The translations under genes were made by a program, and so were the position numbers. Of a stretch of DNA of 64,000 nucleotides, positions 8,115 to 29,839 are shown one piece after another (positions within the stretch are counted from its first letter, which is position 1; each line of letters starts with the position of its first letter). The DNA lies in the NCBI RefSeq assembly GCF_036895565.1, contig NZ_CP145904.1, positions 186,001 to 250,000 of the forward strand, written 5' to 3'. The notes below the pieces were generated by a model. That model was not told where the DNA came from. It was given only the letters and a program-made list of their open reading frames with translations, and did not search any database. Origin of the DNA: Flavobacterium sp. KS-LB2. GTDB lineage: Bacteria; Bacteroidota; Bacteroidia; Flavobacteriales; Flavobacteriaceae.

Positions 8115-8927
8115 ATGAATTATTCGTACATTATTATTGACGACGATCAAGAAAGTGTTTTGAAGACTAAAGCTATAGCTGATAGTTTTTCAGAACTTGA
8201 TTTTGTAGCATCGGCTGATAATTATGAAGATGGTTTAAATCTAATACTCGAGCATACTCCACAACTAGTTTTTTTAGAGATTGATCCAGCTAATACTGCT
8301 AGTAATTTGTCGTTAGCTCTAATAAATGAGTTGTACCGATATTTAAAGGTAATTCCTAAAATTATAATTACCACGGCTGGGAAAGATTTAGCTTTTGAAG
8401 CTATAAAATATGAGGTTTTTGATTATTTATTAAAGCCGTTGAAACGAATAGATGTTGTAAAGTCAGTTTTAAAATTAAATAAATCAATTGTTCCTAAAGA
8501 AATTGTTTCAGAACAAACATTAGTTGTAGATGCAGAGCCGACAGTTTTAGCGAGACAAGAAATACCCAATCAAGATCATTCTCTAATTTTGTGTATTAAA
8601 TCCTATGGTGATTACAGATATATTGCTGCCAGAGATATTTGCTATTTTCAAGCGGATAATAATTCTACGGATATATATCTAAATACTGGTGAAATGATAA
8701 CAGCTTTCAAAACATTAAAGCATTTCGAAGGAGTCTTATCCTTTCCATTTATTAGAATTCACAACAGTTATATCGTAAATCGTAATTATATTTCTAGAAT
8801 TCACAGTGGAAACTCAGTATGTTATATTAAGAATAGTGCTGTAAAGCTTCCTTTCTCCAAATCGTATAAGGTAAATATTGACCTTATTATTTCTGATTTT
8901 TCTAATGGAAATTACTTAGAAATTTAA
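8115..8927 (+). CDS. LytTR-family response regulator with an altered receiver
   Basis: Transcription regulator with an N-terminal receiver (about residues 1-120) and a C-terminal LytTR DNA-binding domain (about 165-265). The receiver keeps the acidic pocket (Asp9, Asp10 in IIIDDDQES), the switch Thr in IITTAGKD and the Lys in YLLKPLK. The phospho-acceptor position, expected as FLDI, reads FLEI, with Glu55 in place of Asp. The protein may therefore act without phosphorylation. The LytTR domain has the conserved end FIRIHNSYIVNRNYISRI. I chose ATG at 8115, with AGGA 11 bases upstream, over the TTG just before it. No LytS-type kinase is adjacent. Two direct repeats of the kind this family binds lie just downstream. 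Confidence 0.88.
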   Translation: MNYSYIIIDDDQESVLKTKAIADSFSELDFVASADNYEDGLNLILEHTPQLVFLEIDPANTASNLSLALINELYRYLKVIPKIIITTAGKDLAFEAIKYEVFDYLLKPLKRIDVVKSVLKLNKSIVPKEIVSEQTLVVDAEPTVLARQEIPNQDHSLILCIKSYGDYRYIAARDICYFQADNNSTDIYLNTGEMITAFKTLKHFEGVLSFPFIRIHNSYIVNRNYISRIHSGNSVCYIKNSAVKLPFSKSYKVNIDLIISDFSNGNYLEI

Positions 8928-8931
8928 AAAA

Positions 8932-8966
8932 TAGTCATTCACTCTAATTTGGTAGTCATTCACTCT
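8932..8966 (+). promoter_or_regulatory. Tandem direct repeat, candidate LytTR binding site
   Basis: TAGTCATTCACTCT occurs twice without a mismatch, at 8932-8945 and 8953-8966, a period of 21 bases or two helical turns. LytTR proteins such as ComE and AgrA bind paired direct repeats with about this spacing. The site lies between the LytTR gene and the repeat-peptide gene, about 140 bases before the latter's ATG. Confidence 0.65.
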
Positions 8967-9102
8967 CAAAAGGCCACATTCTACCATAAACCCCTTTTTT
9001 TGTAGGAAATTTTAAAGTTGTCTGTGTAGTTTTACAAAAGAATCGCAGCTGATTGTGGTTCCAAAACAAGACAAATAAAACAACAACATAAAAACCCAAA
9101 TT

Positions 9103-9387
9103 ATGAAAAAAGCAATCTTAACAATCGGATTATTCTCTTTAGTAATGATATTAACATCTTTTACTACACCAGAATCTAACACAACAATTAGTACAGATAA
9201 AACTAATAGTGTTGATATAGTTGGAGCAGGTGCAACAGGAGGAAATAAAAAAATAGATATAGTTGGAGCAGGTGCAACAGGAGGAAATAAAAAAATTGAT
9301 ATAGTTGGAGCTGGTGCAACAGGAGGAAATAAAAAAATAGATATAGTTGGAGCTGGTGCAACAGGAGGAAATAAAAAAGTAGATTAA
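9103..9387 (+). CDS. Small secreted protein with four 14-residue tandem repeats
   Basis: I do not recognise this 94-residue protein. Residues 1 to about 22 form a signal peptide (basic MKK start, then a hydrophobic run ending LTSFTTP). After a Thr/Ser-rich linker, residues 37-92 are four copies of the unit [V/I]DIVGAGATGGNKK, followed by a final Val-Asp. The units differ only in their first residue, and at DNA level only in that codon and one silent GCA/GCT change. Each unit ends in Lys-Lys, which could be a processing or charge feature. The gene is preceded by the LytTR-type repeat, followed by a terminator, and lies between two sets of two-component genes. It could be a signal precursor, a surface or matrix protein, or a regulated envelope peptide; none of these is shown. 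Confidence 0.8.
   Translation: MKKAILTIGLFSLVMILTSFTTPESNTTISTDKTNSVDIVGAGATGGNKKIDIVGAGATGGNKKIDIVGAGATGGNKKIDIVGAGATGGNKKVD
9211..9378 (+). repeat. Four-copy 42-bp coding minisatellite
   Basis: Four tandem 42-bp units in frame at 9211-9252, 9253-9294, 9295-9336 and 9337-9378. They are almost identical in sequence, so copy number could change by slippage or recombination without breaking the frame. Confidence 0.95.
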
Positions 9388-9417
9388 TTAAGATTTTATC
9401 TTAATTTAAATAGCTTA

Positions 9418-9449
9418 AGGCTGTCAATTTTGTTGATAGCCTTTTTTTA
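9418..9449 (+). terminator. Terminator of the repeat-peptide gene
   Basis: Nine-base stem GGCTGTCAA / TTGATAGCC with one G-T pair, loop TTTTG, then a run of seven T. It separates the peptide gene from the kinase gene. A smaller hairpin ATTAAGAT / ATCTTAAT precedes it. Confidence 0.85.
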
Positions 9450-9492
9450 TGTGAATAGTTTTACTATTTTTGATAAAATTCAAAAAGAACTG

Positions 9493-11517
9493 TTGAAAAG
9501 TATTTATCTTATATTGTTAATTATTTTGTTGGTTTTTTTTGGATGTTCCAAAAAGAATGAATTCAATACTATAATTAATTCTTCAGAGGACAGTCTATCT
9601 TCTTATCTTTCTATGGCAAACGACTTCAATTTGTCACGTGAAAAAAGAAAAGAATTTAATCAAAAAGCTTTTGCGATTATTGTAGACCAACCAAATGATT
9701 CTTTAAATAAAGCTAATTTGTTCAAAGTAGCGAATCGCTATTATAATATGGATAATTGGGCTGATTTTAAACAAACAGTAAATATTGTTTTAGAAAAATC
9801 GAAAAGTACCCAAGATACAATCAATATCGCTAAAGCTTATACCTATTTAGGGGATTTTTATGCATCACAGGCTGTTTCGGATAGTGCTTTTATTTATTAT
9901 TTCAAAGCAGAGAAAATGTATTTGCAGCGCAATGATATTTATAATTTGGCAAGAACTCGATTGAATAAAGCAATACTGCAATTTAATGCGGGGGATTTTC
10001 TAGGAAGTGAAATAGCTGTATTTAATGCTTTGCGAGTTGTGAAAGGGGAAAAAGCAAGTGATATAGTATATGAATCATACAATCATTTGGGGTTAATTTA
10101 TAATGAGCTTGGGGATTATGAAAAAGCAATTGAATTTAATGACAAGGCGTTAGCTAGTATAGATGATAAAACAATTCCATCAGTTTTTCAGTCTAAAGCA
10201 ACTTCGCTAAACAATATGGGGTATGTGTATCAAAATATGAACCGGCATGAAAAAGCCATCAGCTATTTTAGAGAAGGTTTAAATCAAAAAGATTTAAAAA
10301 CAGACAAACCATTTGTGTATGCGATGTTAATTGATAATTTAGCCTATTCAAAATTTAAAACAGCTGATTTTATTGACTTACCAGAACAGTTTTATCAATC
10401 ACTTGAACTTCGTGAAAGTTTACAATTAACATCTGGTATTCTTGTCAGTAAAATGCGATTGTCAGAATATTTTGCATCAAAAAAAGATTCTGTTAAATCT
10501 TTGAAATATGCAAAAGAGTCTCTTGTTTTAGCTAAGCAAGTAAAAAACTACAAAAGTGTTTTATTGATTCTTAAACAACTCTCCATTATAGAGCCAGAAA
10601 AGTCGTCTACATATAACAAGCAATACATTCATATCAACGACAGCTTGCAAAAAGCAGAGCGAAAAATAGGTGAAAAATTCACTCGTATTGAATATGAAAC
10701 GGATCAAATTAAGAGCGAAAATACTAATCTAGTAGAGCAGAACAGGAATCTAGTTTATATTTTCAGTGGATTAGCAATGTTGGGTTTGTTTACTTTTGTA
10801 ATTAAAACGCAGAAAGCTAAAAATAGAGAGTTACTGTTCAAACAACAACAACAAAAAGCCAATGAGGAAATCTATAGTTTGATGCTATCGCAACAAAATT
10901 CAATAGAAAGTAGTAGGGTCGAAGAGAAGAAAAGAGTGGCTCGCGAATTACACGACGGTGTTTTGGGACGAATGTTTGGTGTGCGAATGAATTTAGATGG
11001 GTTAAATACTTTTCAAGATGAGCAAGCGATTAACCAAAGAACAAACTACTTATCAGAGTTGAAAAATATTGAACAAGATATTCGTGAAATTTCTCATGAT
11101 CTAAATAGAGAGAAATCAGAATTAATTAATAACTTCGTCGCAATAGTTAATAATTTATTCGAAGAACAAAAAAAGACCTATAAATCAAAACTAGTTTCAA
11201 GTATCGATTCGCGCATAAAATGGGAAATGGTTCCTAATTCAGTCAAAATTAATCTATATCGAATTCTTCAAGAATCACTCCAAAATAGTAATAAGTATGC
11301 TACAGCAGAAACTATTAAAATTGAACTTAAAAAAGAAGAAGATCACCTGATTTTGATTATGAGTGATGATGGTGTAGGATTTAATGTTAAAACAGCGAAA
11401 AAAGGAATTGGCTTGCAGAATATACTTTTTCGAACCAATGAATGTGATGGAGTTGTTGATATAAAATCGAAAAAAGGAGAAGGTACAATCATAACAATTA
11501 CAGTCCCAATAGAATAA
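9493..11517 (+). CDS. TPR-containing lipoprotein sensor histidine kinase (HisKA_3 type)
   Basis: Membrane kinase that should phosphorylate the regulator encoded just downstream. From the TTG at 9493 it begins with a lipoprotein signal (MKSIYL, a hydrophobic run, FFGC). About 350 residues of tetratricopeptide repeats follow, for example HLGLIYNELGDYEKAIEFND, placing a protein-binding sensor outside the cytoplasm. Next come one membrane segment (LVYIFSGLAMLGLFTFVI), a Gln-rich coiled coil and the kinase core. The phospho-acceptor His lies in KKRVARELHDGVLG. The ATPase has the N-box QESLQNSNKYA, DDGVGF and GIGLQNI. Longer start codons at 9430 and 9451 overlap or abut the upstream terminator, so 9493 is preferred. 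The TPR/HisKA_3 layout is common in flavobacteria; the signal sensed is unknown. Confidence 0.85.
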   Translation: MKSIYLILLIILLVFFGCSKKNEFNTIINSSEDSLSSYLSMANDFNLSREKRKEFNQKAFAIIVDQPNDSLNKANLFKVANRYYNMDNWADFKQTVNIVLEKSKSTQDTINIAKAYTYLGDFYASQAVSDSAFIYYFKAEKMYLQRNDIYNLARTRLNKAILQFNAGDFLGSEIAVFNALRVVKGEKASDIVYESYNHLGLIYNELGDYEKAIEFNDKALASIDDKTIPSVFQSKATSLNNMGYVYQNMNRHEKAISYFREGLNQKDLKTDKPFVYAMLIDNLAYSKFKTADFIDLPEQFYQSLELRESLQLTSGILVSKMRLSEYFASKKDSVKSLKYAKESLVLAKQVKNYKSVLLILKQLSIIEPEKSSTYNKQYIHINDSLQKAERKIGEKFTRIEYETDQIKSENTNLVEQNRNLVYIFSGLAMLGLFTFVIKTQKAKNRELLFKQQQQKANEEIYSLMLSQQNSIESSRVEEKKRVARELHDGVLGRMFGVRMNLDGLNTFQDEQAINQRTNYLSELKNIEQDIREISHDLNREKSELINNFVAIVNNLFEEQKKTYKSKLVSSIDSRIKWEMVPNSVKINLYRILQESLQNSNKYATAETIKIELKKEEDHLILIMSDDGVGFNVKTAKKGIGLQNILFRTNECDGVVDIKSKKGEGTIITITVPIE

Positions 11518-11537
11518 ATATAAAATTTATATAAAAA

Positions 11538-12224
11538 ATGATAATTGACCAATCAACAAACAAGAATAATATATTAATCGTTGATGACCACCCTTTTATT
11601 ATAGAAGGATACAAAAATGCAATTACTAGATATAATCCTGATGAGTTTGAGTTTTTTATAACACAAGCTAAAGATTGTGAATCAGCTTATAACATTATTA
11701 CAAATCCGGATACTTTGATGTTTGACATCGCTTTTCTAGATATTAGTATGCCACCTTATGAAGAAAAAAATATTTATTCAGGAGAGGATTTGGCAAGATT
11801 GATATTAGAATTTATGCCAAATTGTAAAATAATTTTGCTTACTATGTACACAGAATTATTGAAAATAAAAACGATTATAAGTACTATAAATCCTAATGGT
11901 TTAGTAATAAAAAATGATTTAACATTTGATGAGTTGCTTTTTGCTTTCGATAAAGTTATAAGAAATGAGACATATTACAGCCAGTCCGTTCTAAAAATGT
12001 TAGCCCAATCTGAGGGGAATAGTATAGAAATAGATCAATTTGACAAAGAAATTTTATTTCATATTTCAAGAGGAACCAAGTTGACTGATATTCCGCAATA
12101 TATCCCAATTTCTTTAGGAGCAATTGAGAGAAGAAAATTAGACTTAAAAGAATTATTAAAAGTTGAAGAGGGTACTGATATCGACTTAGTTCGAGAGGCA
12201 AAAAATAAAGGTTTACTTTTTTAA
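11538..12224 (+). CDS. Response regulator, NarL/FixJ-like
   Basis: Partner of the kinase ending 20 bases upstream. The receiver (residues 12-145) has the acidic pair in VDDHPF (Asp16, Asp17), phospho-acceptor Asp68 in FLDISMP, switch Thr102 and Lys125. The C-terminal 60 residues (about 165-225) resemble a LuxR-type helix-turn-helix in pattern (KEILFHISRGTKLTDIPQYI, then GAIERRKLDLKELL) but are diverged, for instance in the usual TVxxHxxxI stretch. It is likely a DNA-binding regulator whose targets are unknown; the promoter of the repeat peptide or of the LytTR gene is an obvious place to look. Confidence 0.85.
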   Translation: MIIDQSTNKNNILIVDDHPFIIEGYKNAITRYNPDEFEFFITQAKDCESAYNIITNPDTLMFDIAFLDISMPPYEEKNIYSGEDLARLILEFMPNCKIILLTMYTELLKIKTIISTINPNGLVIKNDLTFDELLFAFDKVIRNETYYSQSVLKMLAQSEGNSIEIDQFDKEILFHISRGTKLTDIPQYIPISLGAIERRKLDLKELLKVEEGTDIDLVREAKNKGLLF

Positions 12225-28405: not shown

Positions 28406-29839
28406 ATGAAACATCTTAACAAACTTTTTGTTGCTGTAATGATGGTCATGGGATTAAGCTCTCATGCACAAGATAGTAACAATCCATGGGCAATCTCTTT
28501 TGGAGTTAATGCCGTTGACACTAAAGCTAGTGCTGGTGGAGGACATAATTGGCTAGATCAACATTTTTCTCAACCTTTTGCAGTAAAAGACAATTGGAAC
28601 ATTCTTCCATCAGTATCATACCTTAGTGTATCGAAATACATTGGTGATAATTTCTCATTTGGACTTTCTGGTTCTGTGAATAAAATTGATAAATTTGTAA
28701 GATTTTCTCCAGCTACAGTTGGTAGCGATTCACGTGGGTATGTAGTGTCGAACCCAGGAGACCTAATGTATTATGGTGTTGATGCAACTATTAAATATAG
28801 TTTCATGAACTTGATTGGTTCTAAAGTTGTTGATCCGTCTTTATCTGTTGGTGGAGGTTATACTTTCTTCGGAGATAGTAGTTTCGGAACTTTGAATCCT
28901 GGTGCTGGTTTAACTTTTTGGTTTACTGAAAGTGTTGGATTTGAACTTTCTACAAGATACAAAAAATCATTTGGTGATAGAGAAGATGCTTCTGGTACTC
29001 CAGACGCTCCATCTCATTTTCAACATTCAGCGGGTCTTATCTTCAAATTCGGAGGTAAAGATACAGATGGTGATGGAATATATGACAAAGATGATGCTTG
29101 TCCAGAAGTTGCTGGTTTAAAAGAATTCAACGGATGTCCTGATACTGATGGAGATGGAATTCAAGATAGTGCTGATGCTTGCCCAGAAGTTGCTGGTTTA
29201 GCTGCATTGAACGGATGTCCTGATACAGATGGAGATGGAATTGCTGATAAAGATGATGCTTGTCCAGAAGTTGCTGGTTTAGCTGCATTGAAAGGTTGTC
29301 CTGATACTGACGGAGACGGAGTAGCTGATAAAGATGACAAATGTCCAACTGTTGCAGGTCCTAAAGAAAACGCGGGTTGTCCTTGGCCAGATACTGATGG
29401 AGATGGTGTTTTAGACAAAGATGATAAATGTCCAGAAGTAAGAGGTACTGTTGCTAATCAAGGTTGTCCAGAAGTTTCTGAAGAAGTTATGAAAACTTTA
29501 AATAACTATGGTAAAATAATCTTGTTTGATTCTGGTAAATCTACTTTCCAAAAAGGTACTTACACAGTTTTACAGTCAATTACTTCAATCTTAAAAGAAT
29601 ATCCTTATTCAAGATTTATGATCGAAGGACACTGTGATAGTGATGGTAGTAATGAACTTAACCAAACTTTATCTGAGAACAGAGCTGCTGCAGTTAAAAA
29701 TTATTTAATTGAAAACGGAATTGCTGCTGATAGACTTAGATCTACAGGTTTCGGAGAAACTAAACCAATTGCAACTAACAAAACTGCAAAAGGAAAAGCA
29801 ATGAACAGAAGAGTTGAAATATCTTTGATTAAAGAATAA
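28406..29839 (+). CDS. OmpA-family outer-membrane protein with TSP type-3 repeats (P60-like)
   Basis: Major outer-membrane protein that ties the membrane to peptidoglycan. Residues 1-22 are a signal peptide ending SSHAQ. A beta-barrel domain covers about 23-215. Five calcium-binding thrombospondin type-3 repeats of the form [21 protein letters not shown] occupy about 218-355. The C-terminal OmpA peptidoglycan-binding domain is about 370-475, with [20 protein letters not shown] and [10 protein letters not shown]. The design matches the flavobacterial P60 proteins. A strong promoter and terminator flank it, consistent with high, independent expression. Confidence 0.92.
29059..29470 (+). repeat. 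Coding repeats of the TSP3 region
   Basis: Five copies of a roughly 75-base unit encoding the DTDGDG...ACPEVAG pattern; the middle units are nearly identical in DNA (for example GATGCTTGTCCAGAAGTTGC recurs). Such repeats are prone to copy change and may collapse in short-read assemblies. Confidence 0.85.

Follow-up and report, generated by a model that had tools for sequence, protein, structure and literature searches.

Peptide quorum sensing in Gram-positive bacteria is known through sensor kinases and, separately, through receptors built on tetratricopeptide repeats (TPR). The sensor kinases of Agr- and Com-type circuits are polytopic and of the HPK10 type, and the AgrA operator has direct sites with a 21-bp spacing; in yeast, the alpha-factor precursor carries a leader and then tandem pheromone copies with spacers, and its receptor is a G-protein-coupled receptor. 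The RRNPP(A) receptors of Firmicutes are described as cytoplasmic and as responding to re-internalised peptides (PMC9765709). In one comparative study of Flavobacteriaceae, acyl-homoserine-lactone gene clusters were reported in only one strain (PMC7440613), and whether and how flavobacteria communicate is an open question. The window analysed here, a stretch of 64,000 nucleotides (G000:C1:186001-250000) of the 3.41-Mb single-contig genome of Flavobacterium sp. KS-LB2, contains at positions 8115-12224 four adjoining genes on the + strand, all present as an earlier note on this DNA had listed them: a LytTR-type regulator, a small precursor with repeats, a histidine kinase with a TPR domain and a NarL-like response regulator. 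We consider it quite probable that these four genes form a peptide-pheromone system whose receptor is an exported TPR kinase. A wider proposal concerns the Flavobacteriaceae as a whole, which would have in common a language of peptide pheromones that has so far gone unrecognised. It would be a class of Gram-negative quorum sensing whose exported precursors, plain or lipoprotein-type and in many cases multi-copy, are read by periplasmic TPR-histidine kinases, with a private pherotype for each species and for each tandem peptide-receptor pair; taken jointly, this is in our estimate moderately probable.

The association of the peptide gene with the kinase gene was counted from the kinase side, taking as Flavobacterium loci the best-ranked rows of a kinase search (173 of the 199 genomes of the genus match at 1e-60) and accepting as peptide gene an open reading frame of 42-180 codons with a positive charge and then a hydrophobic stretch, whose stop fell between -420 and +70 nt of the downstream gene. 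Such a gene lies 5' of the kinase in 83 of the 84 best-ranked loci, the window's own included; in the sole exception (L106, in genome G551) the N-terminal part of the kinase is missing and neither a peptide gene nor a LytTR match was found 5' of it, so that this locus appears to have lost its signalling half. Same-strand controls gave a peptide-like frame before 0/85 response regulators and 1/46 LytTR genes, and opposite-strand controls before 3/84 kinases, 11/85 response regulators, 0/46 LytTR genes and 1/28 kinases of other genera. In those other genera the peptide gene precedes the kinase in 27/28 loci under the fixed criterion and in 40/40 under a looser pattern checked by eye. The comparison of neighbourhoods that the earlier note had proposed thereby bears out its expectation for the peptide, and within Flavobacterium also for the LytTR frame (76/86 loci) and the response regulator (85/86); outside this genus the LytTR gene is less constant (19/28 and 22/40 loci), while the response regulator follows the kinase in 28/28. 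A peptide gene accompanies 18 of 20 weaker relatives of the kinase within the genus, and no such peptide was found upstream of three weaker kinase matches in the window's own genome (L251-L253). A profile of 93 kinases run against 247 genomes of the class, with E <= 1e-120 as sole cut-off, matched nine of these genomes, all from the same family; more distant kinases could fall short of this threshold.

The candidate pheromone precursor (9103..9387, supported by repeat and homolog searches) is a protein of 94 amino acids in which a leader (residues 1-21/22) opening the arrangement MKKAILTIGLFSLVMILTSF-TTPE... is followed by a spacer, three units of IVGAGATGGNKKID and one of IVGAGATGGNKKVD. The four 14-residue repeats noticed earlier (residues 39-94; 9217-9384) are real, forming a tandem repeat of 4.1 copies with a 42-bp period and 96% match, and successive copies differ by four nucleotides in sum, three of the changes being synonymous and one not. 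No second copy of the precursor was found in the genome, and neither Pfam nor NCBIfam gave a match naming the peptide; for one peptide homolog the family PF27855 is listed. A protein search with the precursor returned 200 relatives at E <= 10, and the best 120 of these 200, which were examined, share the leader, and in most of them two to five units of 13-15 residues follow one another in tandem. Units of one protein are identical or almost identical, and those of different proteins diverge (LVGSGSAGGNKKVD, LTGGQATGGNQKLD, IVGQGATGGNVKVD and others), and the Flavobacterium loci found through the kinase show a wider range of cores (AAGSGSTGGNVRLD, DEGGTRKIKTDN, IGGGQTANR, IGGQVTPRPV, IGGNRPVGE, IDGGAAGGGRKQD). 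Leaders in other genera often close with a lipoprotein-type SC, and some precursors there again carry tandem repeats, as STDGDDVPTDTRD in L177 and TDGDDTPTDDRQS in L180. The precursor before the kinase of L181 (G118:C1) has five repeats of the form (A/D/N/Q)TDDDDDYVDVDG, an extremely acidic candidate signal. Public records label several repeat-peptide homologs (P0015, P0020, P0042) as '3-oxoacyl-ACP reductase', an apparent misannotation for which the sequences give no support. Kinase-side searching outperformed a homology search with the single peptide: in 397 genomes of the family the latter matched 39, mostly weakly and inside long open frames (weak matches were set aside by frame length, not one by one), and its hits did include the G127 and G317 loci, each with the match beside the kinase.

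Exported peptides that are small, hypervariable and arranged in tandem are typical of toxins as well, and the precursor could on these grounds belong to an antimicrobial or competition peptide, with the kinase monitoring self or rival peptides. The units appear hydrophilic and Gly-rich, however, no immunity, transporter or modification gene was recognised by eye among the neighbouring open reading frames, and the pairing with a kinase, viewed from the kinase side, holds in nearly all loci, so that we regard this explanation as very improbable.

Three loci (L068, L114, L120) keep the core constant between copies while the spacers vary, and L109 does the same except for one substitution in the core of its last copy, a pattern suggesting that the core is the functional part. 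Regular repeats are absent in 39 of 82 precursors, including many in larger Flavobacterium genomes (e.g., L076-L083). For the remaining 43, codon-by-codon comparison of successive units gave pS 0.308 and pN 0.043, with synonymous versus amino-acid changes of 17/0 in L071, 15/0 in L043 and 14/0 in L034, and with much of the non-synonymous count due to three genes (L093, L109, L111) in which the spacers are uneven. Since pS is well above pN, the likeness of the copies is not merely a matter of recent copying, and the protein sequence of the unit is constrained, as would be expected if all copies release one signal.

The putative receptor kinase (9493..11517; Pfam, structure model and alignment) has, in order, a signal, a TPR superhelix, a hydrophobic span and the HisKA_3 and HATPase_c domains, the TPR and catalytic domains being matched by Pfam; its nearest named relatives found are those of Flavobacterium sandaracinum (82% identity), F. 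omnivorum (79%) and F. xanthum (79%). The model of the TPR part (residues 31-366) resembles peptide-binding superhelices, including the Rap and NprR pheromone receptors, and the kinase domain matches DesK and VraS structurally, with its H, D and N residues intact in 74/74 loci. A hydrophobic span was seen by eye at about residues 420-440, before the kinase domain, and the TPR domain is accordingly predicted from sequence on the periplasmic side, between a lipobox-like Cys anchor and this transmembrane helix. The TPR and histidine kinase domains given for this gene in the earlier note stand; the start at 9430 of the frame as called does not, as it falls within a terminator. The likely start, chosen by eye, is TTG 9493, which provides the protein with a short signal whose Cys, at residue 18, is conserved in 74/74 loci.

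If the TPR domain reads the peptide, the two should change together, and co-variation was assessed over those loci in which all four genes were present (74 of 86). Within this set, pairwise identity averages 0.549 for the TPR domain, 0.675 for the kinase, 0.625 for the LytTR receiver, 0.767 for the LytTR DNA-binding domain and 0.679 for the response regulator. Simple Mantel correlation with the distance between peptide cores was 0.475 for TPR and 0.27-0.36 for the remaining domains (all p 0.001); in partial tests given the other domains the core remained correlated with TPR (r 0.311, p 0.001), and correlations were not significant for the kinase (-0.028), LytTR receiver (0.033), LytTR DNA-binding domain (0.026) and response regulator (-0.058), nor for the leader with TPR (0.013, p 0.46). 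Over 37 disjoint nearest pairs, Spearman correlation with the core reached 0.72 for TPR (p 5e-7), with 0.34-0.54 for the other domains and 0.43 for the leader, and that of the core with TPR minus kinase divergence was 0.63 (p 2.5e-5). A TPR domain that reads the peptide would be expected to show such an excess over the other domains. Co-varying TPR columns cluster in the middle of the domain (repeats 4-7), away from its near end; columns above 0.15 are found in 24/135 positions of the A helices versus 8/115 of the B helices (p 0.013). Three observations weigh against a TPR domain that reads the core: in a subset of 36 loci the peptide correlated with TPR at 0.24 but with the leader at 0.47; TPR also correlates with the response regulator (0.61); and, by rank, the A helices, which line the groove, are not more co-varying than the B helices (p 0.29), so that the comparison of helix faces came out positive only in part.

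A peptide that is a target of the system or an unrelated neighbour could stand in the same place through passive linkage, as adjacent genes could travel together and, uncorrected, every domain of the locus correlates with the peptide. Physical linkage explains the co-variation poorly, given that the leader lies in the same gene and that the columns concerned are mid-TPR; once corrected, the signal is confined to TPR and seen neither for the leader nor for the LytTR DNA-binding domain. With the near-complete linkage across genera and the joint duplication of peptide-kinase pairs in one locus (L061), passive linkage appears to us highly unlikely. The guess that peptide, kinase and regulators work together, which the earlier note had offered as such, is instead supported by their co-occurrence and by the co-variation of core and TPR.

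L061 comprises a LytTR gene, three kinases each after its own small frame with a distinct tail (the second frame encoding 45 aa without the usual MKK start) and then one regulator, a layout suggesting that duplication acts on the peptide-kinase pair as a whole. L062 (G505:C39:31500-51400) contains a LytTR-peptide pair, seven head-to-tail TPR kinases (one of them divided between reading frames), then a regulator and finally an eighth kinase, which is the best match of that genome and has no peptide directly before it; one peptide gene was seen in the locus, perhaps reflecting an expansion of receptors without matching signals. Within the set of weaker kinase relatives, L254 (G456:C1:571700-574200) and five more loci stand out. 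In L254 four tandem small lipoprotein-like genes, alike throughout with varying middles and all ending in TDPIIIPKKD, stand before a related kinase, and a fifth gene has a different tail. The other five (L256, L260, L262, L264, L269) hold two adjacent, roughly dissimilar genes with similar -PIII(V/I)KKD-type tails, and tails shared by otherwise dissimilar genes suggest that the signal is C-terminal there.

The regulatory side of the locus is also readable. The LytTR-type regulator (8115..8927, from ATG 8115) carries Response_reg and LytTR domains (Pfam, E 1e-15), in line with its previous description; its receiver is a pseudo-receiver, in which Glu replaces the phospho-acceptor Asp in 74/74 aligned loci. 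Between this gene and that of the peptide lies an operator that the earlier note had missed (8931..8996), with two exact copies of TAGTCATTCACTCT 21 bp apart and a third, weaker site, the exact 14-mer repeat occupying 8932-8945 and 8953-8966. Over these 66 bp, 28 loci align without gaps in three direct, AC-centred elements exactly 21 bp apart (AC at 8941, 8962 and 8983 in the window), the dinucleotides being invariant or nearly so, with GC in the first element of a few loci; the same layout is visible by eye in other genera (L163, L167, L178). Against the genome, an operator profile found this locus at E 2.3e-16 and next a site in L152 at E 0.02, inside a coding frame, in a search that scored 150 of 1917 first-look candidates and that weaker sites could escape. 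Half-site pairs with <=2 mismatches numbered 40 versus 26 in a reversed control, this locus being the only exact match and L122, inside another coding frame, the only one with a single mismatch. The search for a wider LytTR regulon yielded, within the set of scored candidates, nothing comparable to this operator. The LytTR receiver, not phosphorylatable in the usual way, probably takes an input other than kinase phosphate, and the protein is most likely a phosphorylation-independent switch dedicated to peptide production.

The NarL-like response regulator (11538..12224; Pfam, NCBIfam and 74-locus alignment) keeps the five receiver residues D, D, D, T and K in 74/74 loci. Its Response_reg domain is recognised by Pfam and its NarL type, as described before, by NCBIfam, the top match being the NarL-type MctR at E 8e-20, under the curated cut-off; a Pfam match to a helix-turn-helix domain was not obtained for this gene. 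Judging by these residues, with one receiver canonical and the other without its phospho-Asp, phosphate from the kinase would most likely pass to the NarL-like protein, its probable phospho-partner. The terminator reported between the peptide and kinase genes is real (9417..9448, + strand), with a 12-bp stem and a T run, and by a hairpin script terminator-like structures follow the peptide gene in 81/82 loci versus 6/82 in one mononucleotide shuffle. Messenger RNA for the signal would thus exceed that for the receptor.

As a pheromone circuit, the locus could operate as follows. LytTR would bind the three 21-bp-phased sites and drive the precursor gene, whose product would be exported and lose its leader; proteases would then free several copies of one peptide of about 9-14 residues, here around IVGAGATGGNKK-[IV]D. 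The co-variation suggests that this peptide may sit in the TPR groove on the predicted periplasmic side, whereupon phosphate would pass from the kinase to the NarL-like regulator and act on its regulon, and species-specific cores with matching TPR changes would constitute pherotypes. The system most likely serves cell-cell signalling, presumably dependent on density. A peptide kept in the producer's own periplasm could alternatively report protease activity or outer-membrane export rather than neighbours, as an autocrine sensor of envelope or secretion, a role compatible with the predicted periplasmic sensor and with the lipoprotein-like SC leader of many other flavobacterial genera, which could hold the precursor in the envelope. 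The fast, species-specific change of the core along with TPR and the copies kept alike within each gene are more in keeping with specificity between cells than with an internal reporter, and we consider the autocrine role unlikely, if worth keeping in mind.

Elsewhere in the window, an 81-bp tandem repeat of 3.4 copies (29060-29337) appears by eye to encode Asp-rich, DTDGDGI-type calcium-binding units as in OmpA-like proteins, and is probably ordinary.

Among the listed titles and opening lines of abstracts of CC-licensed PMC literature, as distinct from subscription papers and preprints, no description of such a system was found. With this locus, signal, receptor and operator each have a candidate that can be read from the sequence of many species, which makes the question of flavobacterial communication testable with synthetic peptides. 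If correct, the pheromone reading would bring peptide pheromones sensed by a two-component receptor to a Gram-negative group and place a Rap-type TPR fold outside the cytoplasm; the co-evolved pairs of peptide and receptor would also form a natural library on which studies of specificity and the engineering of signalling could draw.

Compared with described systems, the locus combines features of several. Like RRNPP(A) members (Rap, NprR, PlcR, AimR, with Phr-type peptides), it has a modelled TPR superhelix with a putative peptide-binding groove and a short exported precursor gene adjoining the receptor, in the same 83/84 loci; unlike them, it has a histidine kinase fused to the TPR domain, which is predicted to lie beyond the inner membrane. 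With the Gram-positive Agr, ComCDE and Fsr systems it shares a peptide, a membrane histidine kinase and a LytTR regulator with direct sites spaced by about 21 bp before the signal gene, whereas its sensor is a TPR domain and not polytopic, its kinase is of the HisKA_3 type with a NarL-like partner, its LytTR receiver lacks the phospho-Asp, and no AgrB-like or peptide-export gene was recognised nearby by eye. The resemblance of the precursor to that of the yeast alpha-factor, a eukaryotic pheromone, is functional only. The kinase resembles NarX/DesK-NarL pairs in its HisKA_3 and HATPase_c domains, intact H, D and N boxes and NarL-type partner with a canonical receiver, and departs from them in a TPR sensor paired with a peptide gene. 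Exported TPR-kinase fusions of Gram-negative flavobacteria, paired with precursors that in many cases are multi-copy, are far from the known members of these systems.

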